Shown here piece after piece: positions 53,235-60,535 of a stretch of 64,000 nucleotides of DNA. Numbering within the stretch: the first letter of the stretch is position 1; each line of letters opens with the position of its first letter. The DNA is from Candidatus Methanohalarchaeum thermophilum. GTDB taxonomy: Archaea > Halobacteriota > Methanonatronarchaeia > Methanonatronarchaeales > Methanonatronarchaeaceae. Position numbers and translations under genes: made by a program. The notes beneath the pieces are model-generated. The model was not told the origin of the DNA, did not search any database, and saw only the letters and a program-made list of their open reading frames with translations. The stretch covers positions 1,491,169 through 1,555,168 of the forward strand of contig MSDW01000001.1 in the NCBI GenBank assembly GCA_001914405.1. Direction: 5' to 3'.

Positions 53235-54467
53235 TCAAAAAGAACCTAAACCAAAATCAAAAACACAAACATCCCTAATTAGCAATTCACTATCCTCCTC
53301 AGAACAACAAAAACAACCACCCAAACCTGTTTCGTTTAGTTCTTCGTTACTTGTTTCGTTTATTGGTTCGTTACTTGTTTCGTTTATTGGTTCTTTGTTA
53401 CTTGTTGTGGTTTCGTTTATTGGTTCTTTGTTATCTGTTGTGTTTTGGGTCTTTTCTATGTTATTGGGTGGGTTTTGTTGGTTTGTTTCTTTTTCTGTGT
53501 ATGTGTTTGGTTTTTCTATTTGTATTTTGGTTTTTGTTGTTTCTGTGTCGTTGAAATACTTGTTTAGGTTTATGCTGTTTATTTGGTTTGCTGTGAAGGT
53601 GATTTTGTGGTTTATTTCTCCTTCTGTTATGGTGTTGTTTTTTAATTGGTATTTTTGGTAAACTTTAAGGGAGTGCATTGGTTTTAGAGTTCCTAGGTTG
53701 AGGTTCTTTTTTTCTATTTCTAGTAATGTGGTATTTGAGTCGTAGATTGTTTTTTCTTCTATTAATTTTTTGTTTTGGTCGTATTTTTTGTAAATTAATG
53801 TGTAATTTACTATTGAGGGTAAGTTACTTGGTTTTATGTCTTTTTTTGCGTTTTCTGAGCATATATTGGTGTTATGTATTAATTGTTGGTTCATGTAGAC
53901 TGCGATTATCTTTGTTTGCTCGTTATTTTCGAGGTCATCGAATTTATAAAGAGGGAACTCTGATTGTCCTGGAATGTGTTCTAGTTCTTCTTCATGGATT
54001 ATTTTTTCTATTCTTTTTATTTCGTTTAGTTCTTCGTCATAGACAAAGAATATAACTTCTAGAGGAGTTTGGTTTGGGTCTGTGATTAAGATCCAGGTTG
54101 AACTACATCCTTTGAATATAATTTTGTCTGAGCTATTTGTTTCGTTTATGTTTTCGGTTGAATTTATTATTTCAATTGTTTTATGTACTTTAACGGGGTT
54201 TGTTCCTTGGTTTATGATAGTGACATTTGTCCAGTCACTTTTTTCTTCGTTCAGGGAGAGCGAATAAGTTTCTCTCCAGGGGTTTTGTTGATCTATGTAA
54301 TTGTTTCCAATGCTTATGTCTATTGTACCGGCTTCTAGGTAAGCGCTTGTGTTTTCCTCTTCAGAGAAAAAAGCAAATACGCCTATCGTTAAGAACGAAA
54401 TTAATGTTGTCACAGTTATTATGGAAATTAATATAGTTTTTAGGTTTCTTTTACTGTTTTTTTTCAT
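53235..54467 (-). CDS. SipW-dependent secreted protein with Asn-Glu-Thr-rich stalk
   Basis: 410 residues. The N-terminus has a SipW/camelysin-type signal: hydrophobic helix then VFAFFSEEENTSAYLEAGTI. The body (40-300) is a predicted beta domain with NPVKVHKTIEIINST. Residues about 330-385 are a repeat stalk of EPINETS units, each with an N-x-T glycosylation sequon. The end has GGCFCCSEEDS. It overlaps the signal peptidase gene by 17 bases, tying the two together. Likely a surface or fibre-associated protein (inference). Confidence 0.7.
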   Translation of the reverse strand: MKKNSKRNLKTILISIITVTTLISFLTIGVFAFFSEEENTSAYLEAGTIDISIGNNYIDQQNPWRETYSLSLNEEKSDWTNVTIINQGTNPVKVHKTIEIINSTENINETNSSDKIIFKGCSSTWILITDPNQTPLEVIFFVYDEELNEIKRIEKIIHEEELEHIPGQSEFPLYKFDDLENNEQTKIIAVYMNQQLIHNTNICSENAKKDIKPSNLPSIVNYTLIYKKYDQNKKLIEEKTIYDSNTTLLEIEKKNLNLGTLKPMHSLKVYQKYQLKNNTITEGEINHKITFTANQINSINLNKYFNDTETTKTKIQIEKPNTYTEKETNQQNPPNNIEKTQNTTDNKEPINETTTSNKEPINETSNEPINETSNEELNETGLGGCFCCSEEDSELLIRDVCVFDFGLGSF

Positions 54468-54960
54468 TTTCCTCTCCTTTTTTTAATTTTATTAACTTCC
54501 TTACCTCTCCTATTATCAAAATTGTTGCAGGGATAAGTATGAGTAAAATGTAGCCTAATAGCGTATTTGCATGGAGAAATATGTATCCATAGAATGGAAA
54601 TGAAACTACGACTTTACCAATGAGGTTATTTTCATCGACTCTTATGTCATCTGCTTCTTCCATGGCATCTCCTTTGGTTAAAAGCTTAATACCATTATCA
54701 TCGGCTTTTTCGATTACTCTGTGAGTAACAGTTTTCTCTCCTATATCAAATGTTACAACATCTCCTACTCTTATCTCTTCAATATCAGTTTCTTTTACAA
54801 TTACTATATCACCAGCACTTAATTCTGGTTCCATACTACTAGAAAGAACAACATAAGAATCATCAGCCATAATAACTTCTGGTAAACCAAATAAAACCGC
54901 AGGAATAACTAACAAAAACACCAATACCAAAGAAAAACTCTTTAAATATTTATTTACCAA
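54451..54960 (-). CDS. sipW: Signal peptidase I, SipW-like (ER/archaeal type)
   Basis: 169 residues. Membrane helix 8-30, catalytic Ser42 in VLSSSMEPEL, then GDIVIVKE, and His80 in TVTHRVIE where bacterial enzymes have Lys, so it is the archaeal/ER type that includes Bacillus SipW. LTKGDAMEEADD holds the Asp. Last helix 130-160. TTG start at 54960, with AT-rich GTATAAAAC about 40 bases upstream. It should cut the signals of the three TasA-like proteins beside it. Confidence 0.85.
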   Translation of the reverse strand: MVNKYLKSFSLVLVFLLVIPAVLFGLPEVIMADDSYVVLSSSMEPELSAGDIVIVKETDIEEIRVGDVVTFDIGEKTVTHRVIEKADDNGIKLLTKGDAMEEADDIRVDENNLIGKVVVSFPFYGYIFLHANTLLGYILLILIPATILIIGEVRKLIKLKKGEENEKKQ

Positions 54961-55063
54961 TTAAATCACGCTCAAATGTTTTATACTAAGTTTAACACTT
55001 AATTACCTATTTATATTCGTTAAATTATTTTTTATTTTATTTTGTTTTTATAGAGTGATAAAT

Positions 55064-55111
55064 TAAAAAAAGGGCTTAAATTTACTAAAAAATTTAAAAC
55101 CCCCTTTTTTC
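55064..55111. terminator. Hairpin terminator with T-run
   Basis: AAAAAAAGGGCTTAAATTT pairs with AAATTTAAAACCCCCTTTTT around a six-base loop. It lies downstream of the gene ending at 55189 and upstream of sipW on the minus strand, so it could separate two transcripts. Confidence 0.5.
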
Positions 55112-55188
55112 TCCTATGTTCAGTTTCTTTGATAGTTTTATTCACTATTTTTGTCTATTTAATTGCTTTATTGAAACTCTAAATCGTT

Positions 55189-56595
55189 TCAATTATTTGG
55201 TGTGTCATCTATTGATGTGCAGAGCACTCCTACTGCCATGTCTCCATATCCAACAGTATGTGGGGTCATTCCTATGTATGGTTCATAACCAACTGCAACT
55301 CCACTATCACGGTCAACTGTCCATATGTATCCATCGGCTCCATTGAATCCGTTTGTTGATCCTACTAGATCACCATTACCGGCTTCTCTTATTGAGATTC
55401 CAGTAAAGTAATCAGGGGATGGTGAAGGCGTTACCAACTCGTCTCCTGTTAGATTTTCAATGTCTATCTCGTAGAATGCATTATCTGCGTTGGTGTATAA
55501 GATTAGGATTCCTTGTGCATCGAATATGAGGTCAGCTCCCTGAACATCTATGTCTAATTCTCCTAGTACCTCTACATTAAGATTGCTTGAATTGATAGTT
55601 AGTAATTTATCTGAACCATCGTCTGCTGCGTAAATTAATCCGTCTTCAGGGTTTACAGCACCTAAAACAACACCATTTAGGTCATCTATGTCAGAATCGG
55701 TTATGTCTTCTACTGTGAATGTTTCGTTTATTAGGTCGTATGTTCCTAGTTTCTTGGTGTCTTTGTCGTATAGGTAGAGTTCTTTTCCGTCTAGTGATGC
55801 TGATAGTGAGTCTACTTGGTCAAATTCACCTGAGTTAACATGTGTTAGTTGGTTTAGGTATGCTCTTGTGTCTTCATCGTCAAGAACTACTTCGAATATT
55901 CTTGTTCCGTCATCGGCTCCTTCTCCGCCTGGACCGCTGTCAGATAAATACATTGTTTCTATTGTCTTACATGTTCCACATGCATCTGGGTCATTTACTT
56001 GTTGTGCTATGAAGGTCATGTCGAATGTCATGTTGTCTCCTTGAGCCCAATTAGTTGTCTCATTGAACATGTGGTATCTCTGTGTTACATTAGCCCAGCC
56101 ACCTGGGGGTATAACTCCTAAGACATATTCTTCTCCGTCAATTCCAAGTAAGAGATGACCAGAAAGCAATTCATTTTCTTCTACTAAGTTACCATCTTCG
56201 TCGTATATCTCTACTGATAGCCAGTACTCTATTGCAGCACTAATCTTGTTCACTGTGTTGTCTGGGTCAGTTGCTTGTTCTGACACTGGATGGGCTCCAC
56301 CATCGTATCCAGTTATGTTTATTACTTTGCAGACTCTTGCATCGTTAGTTCCAACATTTGTAATTGTGACGTTAGAGTACTTTTGATACATCTCTGAAGC
56401 TTTGATGTCATTTAGATTGAACGTCTCCTTCCATGGGTTTCCATCGTTTACCATGATGTCTATAGTACCTGCCTGTAATTCGTTTCCAGTTGCCTTTTCT
56501 GAATCAGTGAAAAAGGCCATAGTTCCATATCCTATCGTCATTGAAACAAGGCCAACTATCACTAAACCCGCTAAAAAACTTTTGCTTATATTCAT
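55189..56595 (-). CDS. TasA/camelysin-like secreted protein with a C-terminal repeat domain
   Basis: 468 residues. SipW-type signal ending TMAFFTDSEKATGNELQAG, then a TasA-like beta domain (NPWKETFNLNDIKASEMYQK, VTITNVGTNDARVCKVINI) with many N-x-S/T sequons. Residues about 205-460 look like beta-propeller strands: GKELYLYDKDTKKLGTYDLI, PEDGLIYAADDGSDKLLTI, YEIDIENLTGD and so on. Probably a surface protein, with a propeller for binding. Forms an operon with the upstream TasA-like gene. Confidence 0.72.
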   Translation of the reverse strand: MNISKSFLAGLVIVGLVSMTIGYGTMAFFTDSEKATGNELQAGTIDIMVNDGNPWKETFNLNDIKASEMYQKYSNVTITNVGTNDARVCKVINITGYDGGAHPVSEQATDPDNTVNKISAAIEYWLSVEIYDEDGNLVEENELLSGHLLLGIDGEEYVLGVIPPGGWANVTQRYHMFNETTNWAQGDNMTFDMTFIAQQVNDPDACGTCKTIETMYLSDSGPGGEGADDGTRIFEVVLDDEDTRAYLNQLTHVNSGEFDQVDSLSASLDGKELYLYDKDTKKLGTYDLINETFTVEDITDSDIDDLNGVVLGAVNPEDGLIYAADDGSDKLLTINSSNLNVEVLGELDIDVQGADLIFDAQGILILYTNADNAFYEIDIENLTGDELVTPSPSPDYFTGISIREAGNGDLVGSTNGFNGADGYIWTVDRDSGVAVGYEPYIGMTPHTVGYGDMAVGVLCTSIDDTPNN

Positions 56596-56626
56596 TTATA
56601 CAAACCTCTCATAAATCTCCTTTAAT

Positions 56627-57340
56627 CTACTCTTCCGCTGAGCTTACGCTTACATCTTCAACGGTTCCTTGGATTGTTGTGTCATCGTTTAATTGGGTTG
56701 CTCCAAAGGTTATGTCAAAAGTAAAGGCGTCTCCTTGGTATTCATTTCCAGTGTCGTTAAGTAGGTGGTAATCTTGGGTTACTTTCATTACTTCACCAGG
56801 CTGTAGTTCACCAAGATAGAACCAAGTACCCTCTTTATCTCCAACTGTGACGTCATCTCCAATGCTGAAAGCTTCACTATCTGCGTATGGGTCGTCTGCG
56901 TAAAATGTTGTTTCATTTTCGTAAAGTTCTATCATCATACTGTAGTCGGTAACTGTGTGTATGTCGTCAACTCTTCCGTCTTTTTCAGCTTGCCATTCAG
57001 GTTCAGATGAATACATTTCTCCATCTGTTGTTTCGTATATTTCTAGTCCTGTGTCACAGCTTGTTACATTGATCATTTTGTATACTTTTGCTGGGTTGCT
57101 TCCTTCGTTTGTTATGTTAGCTACTATGTATCCTGTTTTTTCGCATGGTTTCATGTCATCGATTGTGAATGTTTCGTTCCATGGGTTCTGTCCGTTTACT
57201 GCTAGGTCTATTGTACCAGCTGTTAGCGTGTTACCTGTTGCCTTTTCTTCGTCTGTGAAGAATGCAAAGGTACCTGCTCCAGCTGCTACTCCTACTAGCC
57301 CAATAACCATGAGGCTTAGTAGGGCTTTTTTGTATGCCAT
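56627..57340 (-). CDS. TasA/camelysin-like secreted fibre protein
   Basis: 237 residues. Signal helix LMVIGLVGVAAGAGTFAFFT followed by DEEKATGNTLTAGTIDLAVN, diagnostic of the SipW-dependent class. The mature domain is a beta sandwich of the TasA type (NPWNETFTIDDMKPCEK, NITNEGSNPAKVYKMINVT, FAFGATQL-like last strand), acidic and rich in N-x-T sequons. TasA proteins polymerise by donor-strand exchange into biofilm fibres; related bundling pili are known in archaea. First gene of the operon and the best candidate for the main fibre subunit (inference). Confidence 0.75.
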   Translation of the reverse strand: MAYKKALLSLMVIGLVGVAAGAGTFAFFTDEEKATGNTLTAGTIDLAVNGQNPWNETFTIDDMKPCEKTGYIVANITNEGSNPAKVYKMINVTSCDTGLEIYETTDGEMYSSEPEWQAEKDGRVDDIHTVTDYSMMIELYENETTFYADDPYADSEAFSIGDDVTVGDKEGTWFYLGELQPGEVMKVTQDYHLLNDTGNEYQGDAFTFDITFGATQLNDDTTIQGTVEDVSVSSAEE

Positions 57341-57688: not shown

Positions 57689-57898
57689 ATGAGTAATCTA
57701 GCGTTTTTGGATAAAATATTAGATATATTGAAGGACGAAAATAAACACAAACTGGAAAGCGTCAGAGAAGAATTAGGGTTAACAAAAACGAAATTTACAA
57801 AATTAGTTGAACTAATGGAGGAGATGGAATTGGTTAAACTAGAAAACAAAGAATATCTAAAAATAACCAAGTTGGGCTTAAAATCAACATCAATTTAA
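57689..57898 (+). CDS. Small winged-helix protein
   Basis: 69 residues. Helix-turn-helix KLESVREELGLTKTKFTKLV then a short wing with VKLENKEYLKITKLGLKS. Divergent from the TasA-like operon and a possible regulator of it (position only). Confidence 0.6.
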   Translation: MSNLAFLDKILDILKDENKHKLESVREELGLTKTKFTKLVELMEEMELVKLENKEYLKITKLGLKSTSI

Positions 57899-57955: not shown

Positions 57956-58216
57956 TTATTGCTTTTTACACTTATTAATAGTCTTATTTACCTCTGATAA
58001 ATGACTTAATAACTTTTCTCCTTCTTGTGTTAAATAATAATCCTTTTCATCCTCTTCGATGAAATTATTTTCTAATAAAAACTCAAAATGAGCATTAAAA
58101 GCCCCCCAACTCATATGAGAATCCTGCATAACCCTAGTTTTTTTACATCCATCACTTTCTTTTATAACCTTAAGTACATCATGAAAAATCTTCCACGCAC
58201 TTCTTCTTGTCATCAA
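57956..58216 (-). CDS. Small archaeal winged-helix protein
   Basis: 86 residues. Pattern KIFHDVLKVIKESDGCKKTR, VMQDSHMSWGAFNAHFEFLL, then YYLTQEGEKLLSHLSEV, the shape of the short archaeal wHTH family (HTH_45-like). Convergent with the gene at 57689. Confidence 0.7.
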   Translation of the reverse strand: MMTRRSAWKIFHDVLKVIKESDGCKKTRVMQDSHMSWGAFNAHFEFLLENNFIEEDEKDYYLTQEGEKLLSHLSEVNKTINKCKKQ

Positions 58217-58646: not shown

Positions 58647-60144
58647 TTACTCGCTTACGCTCGTGAGGTAGGGGGTTCCAAGGGCTTTCTCTGAAACTTC
58701 TACATCGTTCTTCTCTATGAATGCCTTGGTTATGAGCCTGTTCACGGAAGCTCCATTCCTCACCATATAGGCAAGGAACCTATACAAAATATTCTTAGCA
58801 CCATTCAAATCAGCATTATAATCACGTAACCCACAACTCCTACAATCAAATATACCTTGACTCGGTCTCACAGTATTCTTACTACCACACCTATGACAGG
58901 TCTTAGAAGTATTTCTCTCATCCACCTTCACAACTTGCACTTCTCTTTCTTTTGCCTTGTACTCGATCATCCTTGTTAGTTTATAGTATGGCATTGTGTT
59001 AGCAATTCTATTCATTCTCTTCCCTTTTCCTGTATCCTTGTTACCTAACCCTTTTAGATCTCCTAACACGATCACAGCATTGATTTCACTTGCTTCGTCC
59101 ACGATCTTCCTGGATATTTTGTGTAGTTGGTCTTCTACCTTCCTTTTTTCTTTGTCTTTTATTTCGTTTACTTTTTTGGTTAGTTCTTTTTGTTGTAGGT
59201 TTTTTCGGATGTGGTTGTAGTGTCTTCTTACTCCTCTTATTTGTTTGCCGTGGAACTCTGGCTTCCCGTTGTCGGCTGACGACACGGTCGTAGCCATAAC
59301 CCTTTCCCCCAAATCCACAGACAAAACATTTTTTGGAACCTGAAAACTCACATCAAGACTAACTGATAAGTGAAGTTCGAAACCATAATCCTTCCAAACA
59401 ATCTTAGAATCATGCACCTTCATGTCTTCTCCTAATTCTTTATCTATTCATCGGAGAAAACCTCTTCCTTTCTTTGATAGGTAGGGGATGAATCCGATCT
59501 TTTTTTAATTAAAAAAACTAATATTATGTTAATGGTAGTTGGTTGGGAGTCTGCCTTGAACAAAAAGCAATCCCATTTAGAGACAGAGTTCTTGGGTAAG
59601 CCTGAAACAGTTCTTGGAGTAGGGTGTAGTGGTTGTGTGGAGCAACCAGAGTGAATAAGGGAGCCATTGTGTAGCTAATATATGGCGTAGTTGCCTAATC
59701 CAATTCTTCACTCGAAGCAATAGTTCCATGTTGACCGAATGTATGAGACAAGTTCGGTGGAAAGGCAAACTTTCGTTTGAAATAAGGCCCATATGGAAGC
59801 CCCTCAGCTTGCTGTGGGGTCACTTCACGAGGTTTTATAGGCACCCAGATCCCACCCCACACATTACTTACAGGTATTTTTGCCCAGTAATCAAATTCTT
59901 CTGTGTTCTCTGCTTTTTCCACTTTGAAGGTGTCGTTTCTTAGATGTAATGGGTATTCCTTACTTTCTTTAACTTTTTCCGTGTACTTATCCATTGCTTG
60001 TTTTGTAGCTGAGTATAAATCTTCTATATCTCCTTTTAGGTATCCTCGTGCATTAGTATATTCTTTAATTAGTAATCCTTTCTTTCTTTTGGTCAGATCT
60101 TGTATTCTGCAGATTATTGTTTTTTCACTCTTCGTTTCTCTCAC
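58647..60144 (-). pseudogene. tnpB: tnpB, RNA-guided nuclease, split by a family A element
   Basis: N-terminal part 60144-59829 (WAKIPVSNVWGGIWVPIKP), C-terminal part 59443-58647 (RuvC-I SVDLGERVMATTV, VLGDLKGLGN, zinc ribbon CHRCGSK...CRSCGLRD, RuvC-III YNADLNGAKN). Removing 59444-59828 joins IKP to HKELGED in frame and gives one open TnpB of about 370 residues, so the interruption is recent. The start overlaps tnpA by 20 bases. The last codons lie in the right-end hairpin. Confidence 0.88.
59444..59828 (+). mobile_element. Family A non-coding element, copy A5, inside tnpB
   Basis: 385 bp, antisense to tnpB, after TTAT (59440-59443). Left end CTATTCATCGGAGAAAACC, hairpin ACCGAA (59734-59739) with TTCGGT (59753-59758), second hairpin CTTTC/GAAA before TAAGG, right end GCCCCTCAGCTTGCTGTGGG and GTCACTTCAC. 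Boundaries are exact because removal restores the tnpB frame. Confidence 0.88.
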
Positions 60145-60535
60145 TTCCTTGGTTTTCTACATACTGTTTTAGTTGATTGAGTGTTACTTCTCCTGTTGTT
60201 ATCAAACAGTAACTATCCGACCAGAAGGTGTTCTCCCATAGTTCATCCTCTATGTCGAATCTGTGTCTTATTGCCTTACTCGTACCTGTTTTTAATGCAT
60301 TTATGAACTTAGTTAAGTCCGCTGTAGGCTTAGTGGAGAAAATTATGTGAGTGTGGTCTTTATCTGTTTCCTGATTCTTTATTTCTATGTTGTAATTCTC
60401 CGCTATTCTCCTTGCCCTGTACTTTAATTCACTTATTACTCCCTTGCCTGTGAATATATTTCTTCTGTACTTCACTACAAGAATCAGGTGATAATTTAGG
60501 CTATAAACTGAGTGAAACGATTTATCAAGATCAGA
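60125..60535 (-). CDS. tnpA: tnpA, Y1 (HUH) transposase
   Basis: At least 116 residues from GTG 60475, but homology runs about 20 codons further upstream (DKSFHSVYSLNYHLILVVKY) to a TGA at 60536, so the true start is unclear or damaged. HUH motif DHTHIIF and catalytic Tyr in LNQLKQYVENQ are present. It cuts and joins single-stranded DNA at the element ends and at TTAT. Overlaps tnpB. Confidence 0.82.
   Translation of the reverse strand, partial: SDLDKSFHSVYSLNYHLILVVKYRRNIFTGKGVISELKYRARRIAENYNIEIKNQETDKDHTHIIFSTKPTADLTKFINALKTGTSKAIRHRFDIEDELWENTFWSDSYCLITTGEVTLNQLKQYVENQGSERNEE

Follow-up and report, generated by a model that had tools for sequence, protein, structure and literature searches.

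Organization of the gene cluster

The locus lies at positions 53235-57340 of the window, by which we mean the whole 64,000-nucleotide stretch of DNA analyzed here, from the genome of Candidatus Methanohalarchaeum thermophilum (2.14 Mb in 4 contigs). Four open reading frames, all on the minus strand, make up the cluster, at the positions given for it in a preliminary description of the sequence. The genes and the features within and between them are as follows.

56627..57340, minus strand: fib1, 237 aa, TasA/camelysin-like protein (PF12389, TIGR04088, TasA profile within its own genome, interface residues)
57266..57340, minus strand: signal peptide of fib1, residues 1-25 (alignment with TasA)
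55189..56595, minus strand: prop, 468 aa, TasA-like domain with a beta-propeller C-terminal to it (PF12389, TIGR04088, AF2 model)
55213..55971, minus strand: beta-propeller module of prop, residues 209-461 (Foldseek, Pfam matches of relatives)
55060..55112, minus strand: terminator-like hairpin and U-tract in the prop-sip gap (RNA folding)
54451..54960, minus strand: sip, 169 aa, TTG start, ER-type signal peptidase I with Ser42/His80 (TIGR02228)
53235..54467, minus strand: stalk, 410 aa, TasA-like domain plus tail (PF12389, phmmer match to fib1)

The gap between fib1 and prop is 31 nt and that between prop and sip 228 nt; the sip and stalk genes overlap by 17 nt. In the fold of a 149-nt intergenic stretch, the prop-sip hairpin had a z-score of -2.28, and 5 of 200 shuffled sequences folded equally well. 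This suggests that fib1-prop can be transcribed separately from sip-stalk and, given a hairpin with a U-run in this gap, their amounts may differ.

The stop codon of fib1 (window 56627-56629) is TAG, and read-through would add just five residues before a TGA. Two pyrrolysyl-tRNA synthetase (PylS) genes score above the family cut-off in this genome, a rare feature described for Candidatus Methanohalarchaeum thermophilum HMET1 (PMC9071458).

Three TasA-like proteins with SipW-type signals

The fib1, prop and stalk proteins had been described as sharing a signature export signal, and all three do score above the PF12389 gathering cut-off of 22.5 bits (37.6, 26.2 and 23.2 bits, respectively). The first two also exceed the cut-off of 19 for TIGR04088 'cognate_SipW' (fib1 32.0 bits, prop 27.5). 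Their SipW-type signals are AFFTDEEKATGNTLTAGTI and AFFTDSEKATGNELQAGTI; the third signal, that of stalk, AFFSEEENTSAYLEAGTI, is weaker and at 14.5 bits falls below the TIGR04088 cut-off. Each protein carries phenylalanine at P2', two residues past the expected cut, a position that is aromatic in 100 of 128 aligned family members. Phenylalanine at P2' is one feature that makes TasA a poor LepB substrate, and it goes with SipW (PMC10269814). The signals of the cluster lack a twin-arginine motif, and the three subunits are thus presumably exported by Sec.

Homology to TasA extends over the mature domain. When a profile of 19 archaeal family members was searched against 177,635 PDB sequences, just two matches were significant, the TasA monomer 5of1 (3e-13) and the TasA fibre 8aur (8e-13), with alignments covering profile positions 33-209, inside the mature domain. 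This homology rests on the wider family, since the single fib1 sequence did not find TasA in the PDB and a narrow five-sequence profile reached it marginally, at 0.02. Across the whole genome, a TasA profile matched three genes, all of them in the cluster (E = 3e-68 for fib1, 6e-64 and 8e-18 for the others).

Signals of this kind are short, and with stalk under the TIGR04088 cut-off one could argue for a chance resemblance, in which a hydrophobic signal and an AGT-like motif occur together without any kinship to TasA. We regard this as hardly conceivable. That the whole-genome profile finds only the three genes of the cluster excludes chance, the similarity spans the mature domain including its last strands, and the three genes sit together with a peptidase in a layout that recurs across bacteria and archaea. 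The match of the family profile to TasA in the PDB, taken with a peptidase on the same strand in 34 of the 41 loci holding fib1 relatives, refutes the idea.

The Pfam name of PF12389 (Peptidase_M73, 'Camelysin metallo-endopeptidase'), a family that all three proteins match, raises a different prospect, namely a cluster of camelysin-type extracellular metalloproteases. This is very improbable: the profile matches TasA, and Bacillus cereus camelysin (CalY) is itself a fibre protein (PMC13082335). Neither HExxH nor HxxxH occurs in any of the four proteins, and we rejected the protease reading.

A signal peptidase tied to the cluster

The ER-type signal peptidase that the preliminary description had recognized is confirmed by a match of 106 bits to the archaeal signal peptidase family TIGR02228 (cut-off 51.85). 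Ser42 and His80 of sip align to the catalytic Ser (in SMEP) and His (in HRV) of human SEC11A/C, and the comparison with SEC11C gave E = 1e-9. Against the Bacillus SipW equivalog model, sip reaches 84.1 bits where 190 are needed, so it is SipW-like in its setting and role and not an equivalog of the Bacillus enzyme.

The sole other signal peptidase found in the genome is the housekeeping enzyme at C1:151099. The sip protein matches this enzyme at 6e-4, and the peptidases of TasA clusters in other lineages at values down to 3e-32. By sequence and setting, sip is a dedicated SipW-like peptidase, distinct from the housekeeping enzyme and linked to TasA-like substrates, and it would be expected to cut the TasA-like subunits of its own cluster.

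TasA interface residues in fib1, prop and stalk

Using the mature start of TasA as a reference (A28-F29; PMC10151520), cleavage of fib1 is predicted before A26-F27-F28. The most conserved contact in TasA is its proline box, formed by F29, P62 and Q232 (PMC10151520). Every TasA interface residue that we tested is kept in fib1: F27/F28, P65, N199-Q202-G203 and Q216. The position of TasA P62 is proline in 121 of 125 aligned family members, and the four exceptions are prop (alanine), stalk (glutamate) and two proteins encoded directly after a peptidase; this comparison rests on an hmmalign alignment and on those few exceptions. Apart from this alanine, prop shares the domain and the C-terminal motif with fib1. 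The largest deviation among the subunits is seen in stalk, where in addition the glutamine is not aligned.

Structural modeling of fib1 gave a beta-rich domain at modest confidence (pLDDT 69, pTM 0.59). This modest model had no PDB match at E<=0.001 in Foldseek, and its best weak matches were FimH-type donor-strand pilins and not TasA. We therefore make no claim from the fold. In the monomer models of both fib1 and prop, the N-terminal segments (about residues 21-40) are of low confidence and unpacked, which is weakly suggestive of a donated strand. The closest relatives of fib1, from other archaea, Dehalococcoidia and Patescibacteria, are 35-43% identical to it.

Given these residues, fib1 is most likely the polymerizing fibre subunit. 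A proline box that is complete in fib1, and a proline lost from both prop and stalk, are also the grounds on which we separate a polymer of fib1 from prop and stalk as minor components. The same missing proline would suit another arrangement, in which SipW-processed monomers or short oligomers are displayed on the S-layer without forming a long fibre and the propeller is the working part, as a receptor or adhesin. CalY in Bacillus likewise works as an adhesin on the cell surface before assembling into fibres (PMC13082335), and the haloarchaeal relatives described below carry large domains within the TasA domain or next to it. Against such a display scaffold stand fib1 itself, a protein free of extra domains in which none of the tested interface residues is lost, and the company it keeps, as the family includes the proven fibre former TasA (PMC9674648) and, as cited in the same paper, the archaeal bundling pili, which are also proven fibre formers. 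We consider the scaffold unlikely and favor the fibre.

A beta-propeller on a TasA-like subunit

The propeller noted in the preliminary description is real, as judged from the model, from Foldseek and from the Pfam matches of its relatives. The AF2 model of prop (pLDDT 80.6, pTM 0.71) is of high confidence in the propeller part (about residues 209-461), which follows a complete TasA-like domain. Foldseek returned 768 PDB matches at E<=0.001 in a search dominated by propellers; the matches listed (50 of 768) are all, judged by their titles, propellers or propeller-containing structures (kelch, YWTD and NHL types). Relatives of the propeller match the Pfam families DUF6923, SGL, Lactonase and WD40. 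With 20 predicted strands, the module may have about five four-stranded blades and a velcro closure by a strand from each end, a blade number that is tentative because many of the matched structures are six-bladed.

Within the haloarchaeal class, 9 of the 294 genomes searched encode relatives of the prop propeller; among 295 genomes of the phylum, relatives with convincing scores were confined to the source genome and two haloarchaea, and none was found in the plasmids and viral contigs searched. Seven haloarchaeal proteins (at loci L062, L063, L066-L068, L071 and L072) have the propeller inside a TasA-like protein with a SipW-type signal, and their propellers are homologous to that of prop (about 28-35% identical over the module). 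They differ from prop in that the propeller interrupts the TasA domain instead of following it, and their signals often look twin-arginine whereas that of prop does not. This recurrence of propeller-bearing TasA proteins in haloarchaea argues for a real architecture. We found no propeller-headed TasA subunit in the literature searched, which mostly excluded subscription journals; the type of cluster itself is already known, and the propeller subunit makes the present one a variant.

At two of the haloarchaeal loci (L062 and L063), SipW-signal TasA-like proteins stand in tandem, with propeller, VWA-like and other insert domains and twin-arginine-like signals. The source genome also encodes a propeller paralog of 543 aa (L061:6688-8319, minus strand, about C1:1376687-1378318), which is 40% identical, looks secreted and has no SipW-type signal. 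By eye, it adjoins ABC transporter genes of the molybdate/tungstate type.

The tailed subunit

The 'stalk' of the preliminary description corresponds to the tail, about residues 301-410, of a 410-residue protein whose TasA-like domain occupies about residues 33-300. A phmmer comparison with fib1 gave E = 1.4e-15 and aligned both the N-terminal and the C-terminal TasA parts. The tail is of low complexity and rich in N-glycosylation sequons (PINETS repeats), four cysteines lie in the last 26 residues, and a C-terminal membrane anchor is not apparent in the protein.

The last ~30 codons (window 53235-53330) switch to a T-rich composition and encode GGCFCC...C. As the base composition changes at this 3' end, we considered a frameshift; by eye, neither of the other frames encodes a convincing membrane anchor, and the reading frame was kept.

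Two winged-helix genes upstream of the cluster

Two small winged-helix genes accompany the cluster.

57689..57898, plus strand: 69-aa winged-helix-like protein (weak HTH matches), divergent from fib1 across a 348-bp gap
57956..58216, minus strand: 86-aa HTH_45/Sso10a-like winged-helix protein (PF14947, 68.7 bits), tail-to-tail with the 69-aa gene

They had been reported to flank the cluster. Both genes are indeed present, but they do not flank it, as they lie on the same, upstream side with one of them divergent from fib1. In the sister genome, the 69-aa gene has a homolog at the equivalent place and in the same orientation (4.6e-6), and the 86-aa gene a syntenic one (2.1e-16). Relatives of the 86-aa HTH_45 protein are found beside TasA genes at two further loci (L043 and L050). 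From this conserved position, it seems probable that the two winged-helix proteins control the operon, with the 69-aa protein a candidate local regulator.

Adjoining the winged-helix genes, at window 58647-60475, are open reading frames or remnants that by eye look TnpB-like and IS200-type TnpA-like, which suggests mobile-element activity beside the cluster.

Related clusters in other genomes

A search for the same gene order elsewhere had been proposed. The order of winged-helix and TasA-like genes is conserved in the sister genus, and peptidase-linked loci recur. Across the phylum, 26 of 295 genomes encode PF12389 proteins, with a SipW-type peptidase next to them in most of the loci examined. 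Among the lineages with relatives of fib1 are Dehalococcoidia, Patescibacteria, Archaeoglobus, Methanophagales and Bathyarchaeota. Next after the peptidase there is often a gene for a large TasA-like protein whose tail looks disordered, as in the present cluster; clusters with fibre, peptidase and tailed protein are found in Dehalococcoidia, Patescibacteria and other archaea, the tailed type being frequent in Patescibacteria and elsewhere.

In the sister genus, which keeps the order and orientation of the winged-helix pair and the fib-type gene, peptidase and tailed protein form one open frame of 366 aa (L040:3387-4487, plus strand). A WWE3 bacterium has the same kind of peptidase fusion, at 688 aa (L090:9045-11111, plus strand). 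With the topology of these fusions, the peptidase could cleave the C-terminal half of its own chain.

At five loci (L043, L046, L049, L050 and L051), all in other archaea, the TasA cluster adjoins a longer signal peptidase (280-326 aa) that has additional membrane segments at its C-terminus, often in addition to a short one.

Comparison with known TasA systems

The cluster shares several features with the tapA-sipW-tasA operon of B. subtilis. A Ser-His signal peptidase adjoins its substrates, an accessory gene overlaps the peptidase gene, and the fibre domain is homologous to TasA with conservation of the aromatic start and of the interface proline and glutamine. Unlike that operon, which encodes TasA plus TapA, the archaeal cluster has three TasA-like substrates, one of them propeller-bearing and one a tailed protein with a TasA-like domain, as well as adjacent winged-helix genes. 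The preliminary description had singled out the propeller and the stalk as additions to the Bacillus plan. While both are absent from the B. subtilis operon, they are not unique, given the tailed TasA-like proteins of Patescibacteria and others, CapP and the haloarchaeal propeller proteins.

The sipW-tasA/capP/calY system of B. cereus likewise has more than one TasA-like substrate per SipW, and its CapP combines a structured N-domain with unfolded C-terminal repeats (PMC13082335). The likeness of stalk to TapA and CapP is one of gene position or of a disordered tail. A propeller subunit, as in the archaeal cluster, has not been described for the B. cereus system.

In Pyrobaculum calidifontis, the archaeal bundling pili (AbpA) are TasA-related donor-strand fibres, according to citations in PMC9674648 and PMC10151520. 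AbpA chains were absent among the PDB matches of our family profile up to E=10, and by sequence the kinship of the cluster to AbpA is through TasA only. The TasA-SipW clusters of Archaeoglobus, Methanophagales, Dehalococcoidia and Patescibacteria likewise have fib-type gene(s), a SipW-type peptidase and a tailed or extra gene; some archaeal ones differ in having a second, longer peptidase.

Discussion

Taken as a whole, the preliminary interpretation of a SipW/TasA-like export and fibre cluster in an archaeon, with its own peptidase, is partly supported. Fibres, a biofilm and base, tip and adhesin roles are suggested by the homology and by subunits that keep TasA interface residues. The reading we prefer, with a probability of roughly 0.7, is a donor-strand fibre of TasA type in which fib1 is the polymer, prop a minor adhesive subunit and stalk a starter or anchor similar to TapA or CapP.

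The three subunits would leave the cell with their SipW-type signals, presumably through Sec, and sip, a homolog of known signal peptidases, would then cut them in front of the A-F-F start. By analogy with TasA, the freed N-terminal segment of fib1 may serve as donor strand for the jelly roll of the next fib1, giving a linear fibre. Prop would most likely be a minor subunit, terminal or decorating, with a ligand or another cell as its binding partner, and stalk would most likely start or anchor the fibre at the membrane. Expression of the operon would probably be under the two winged-helix proteins.

A more speculative extension, which we put forward tentatively and think somewhat improbable, is that TasA fibres of halophilic archaea are mixed. 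The propeller subunit, positioned along the fibre or at its tip, might act as an interchangeable binding head, and a platform in the membrane that physically ties the peptidase to the tailed starter or anchor might couple processing to nucleation. The idea of a platform derives from the fusion of peptidase and tailed subunit in the sister genus and the WWE3 bacterium, and from their overlapping genes in the present cluster.

TasA fibres are a main scaffold of Bacillus biofilms, and genes of this type reach extremely halophilic methanogens. These systems pose the question of how, with neither usher nor sortase, such a fibre gets started, is anchored and acquires its binding specificity. With plain, propeller-headed and tailed subunits side by side, and fusions of tailed subunit and peptidase in relatives, a division of labor among the subunits becomes testable.
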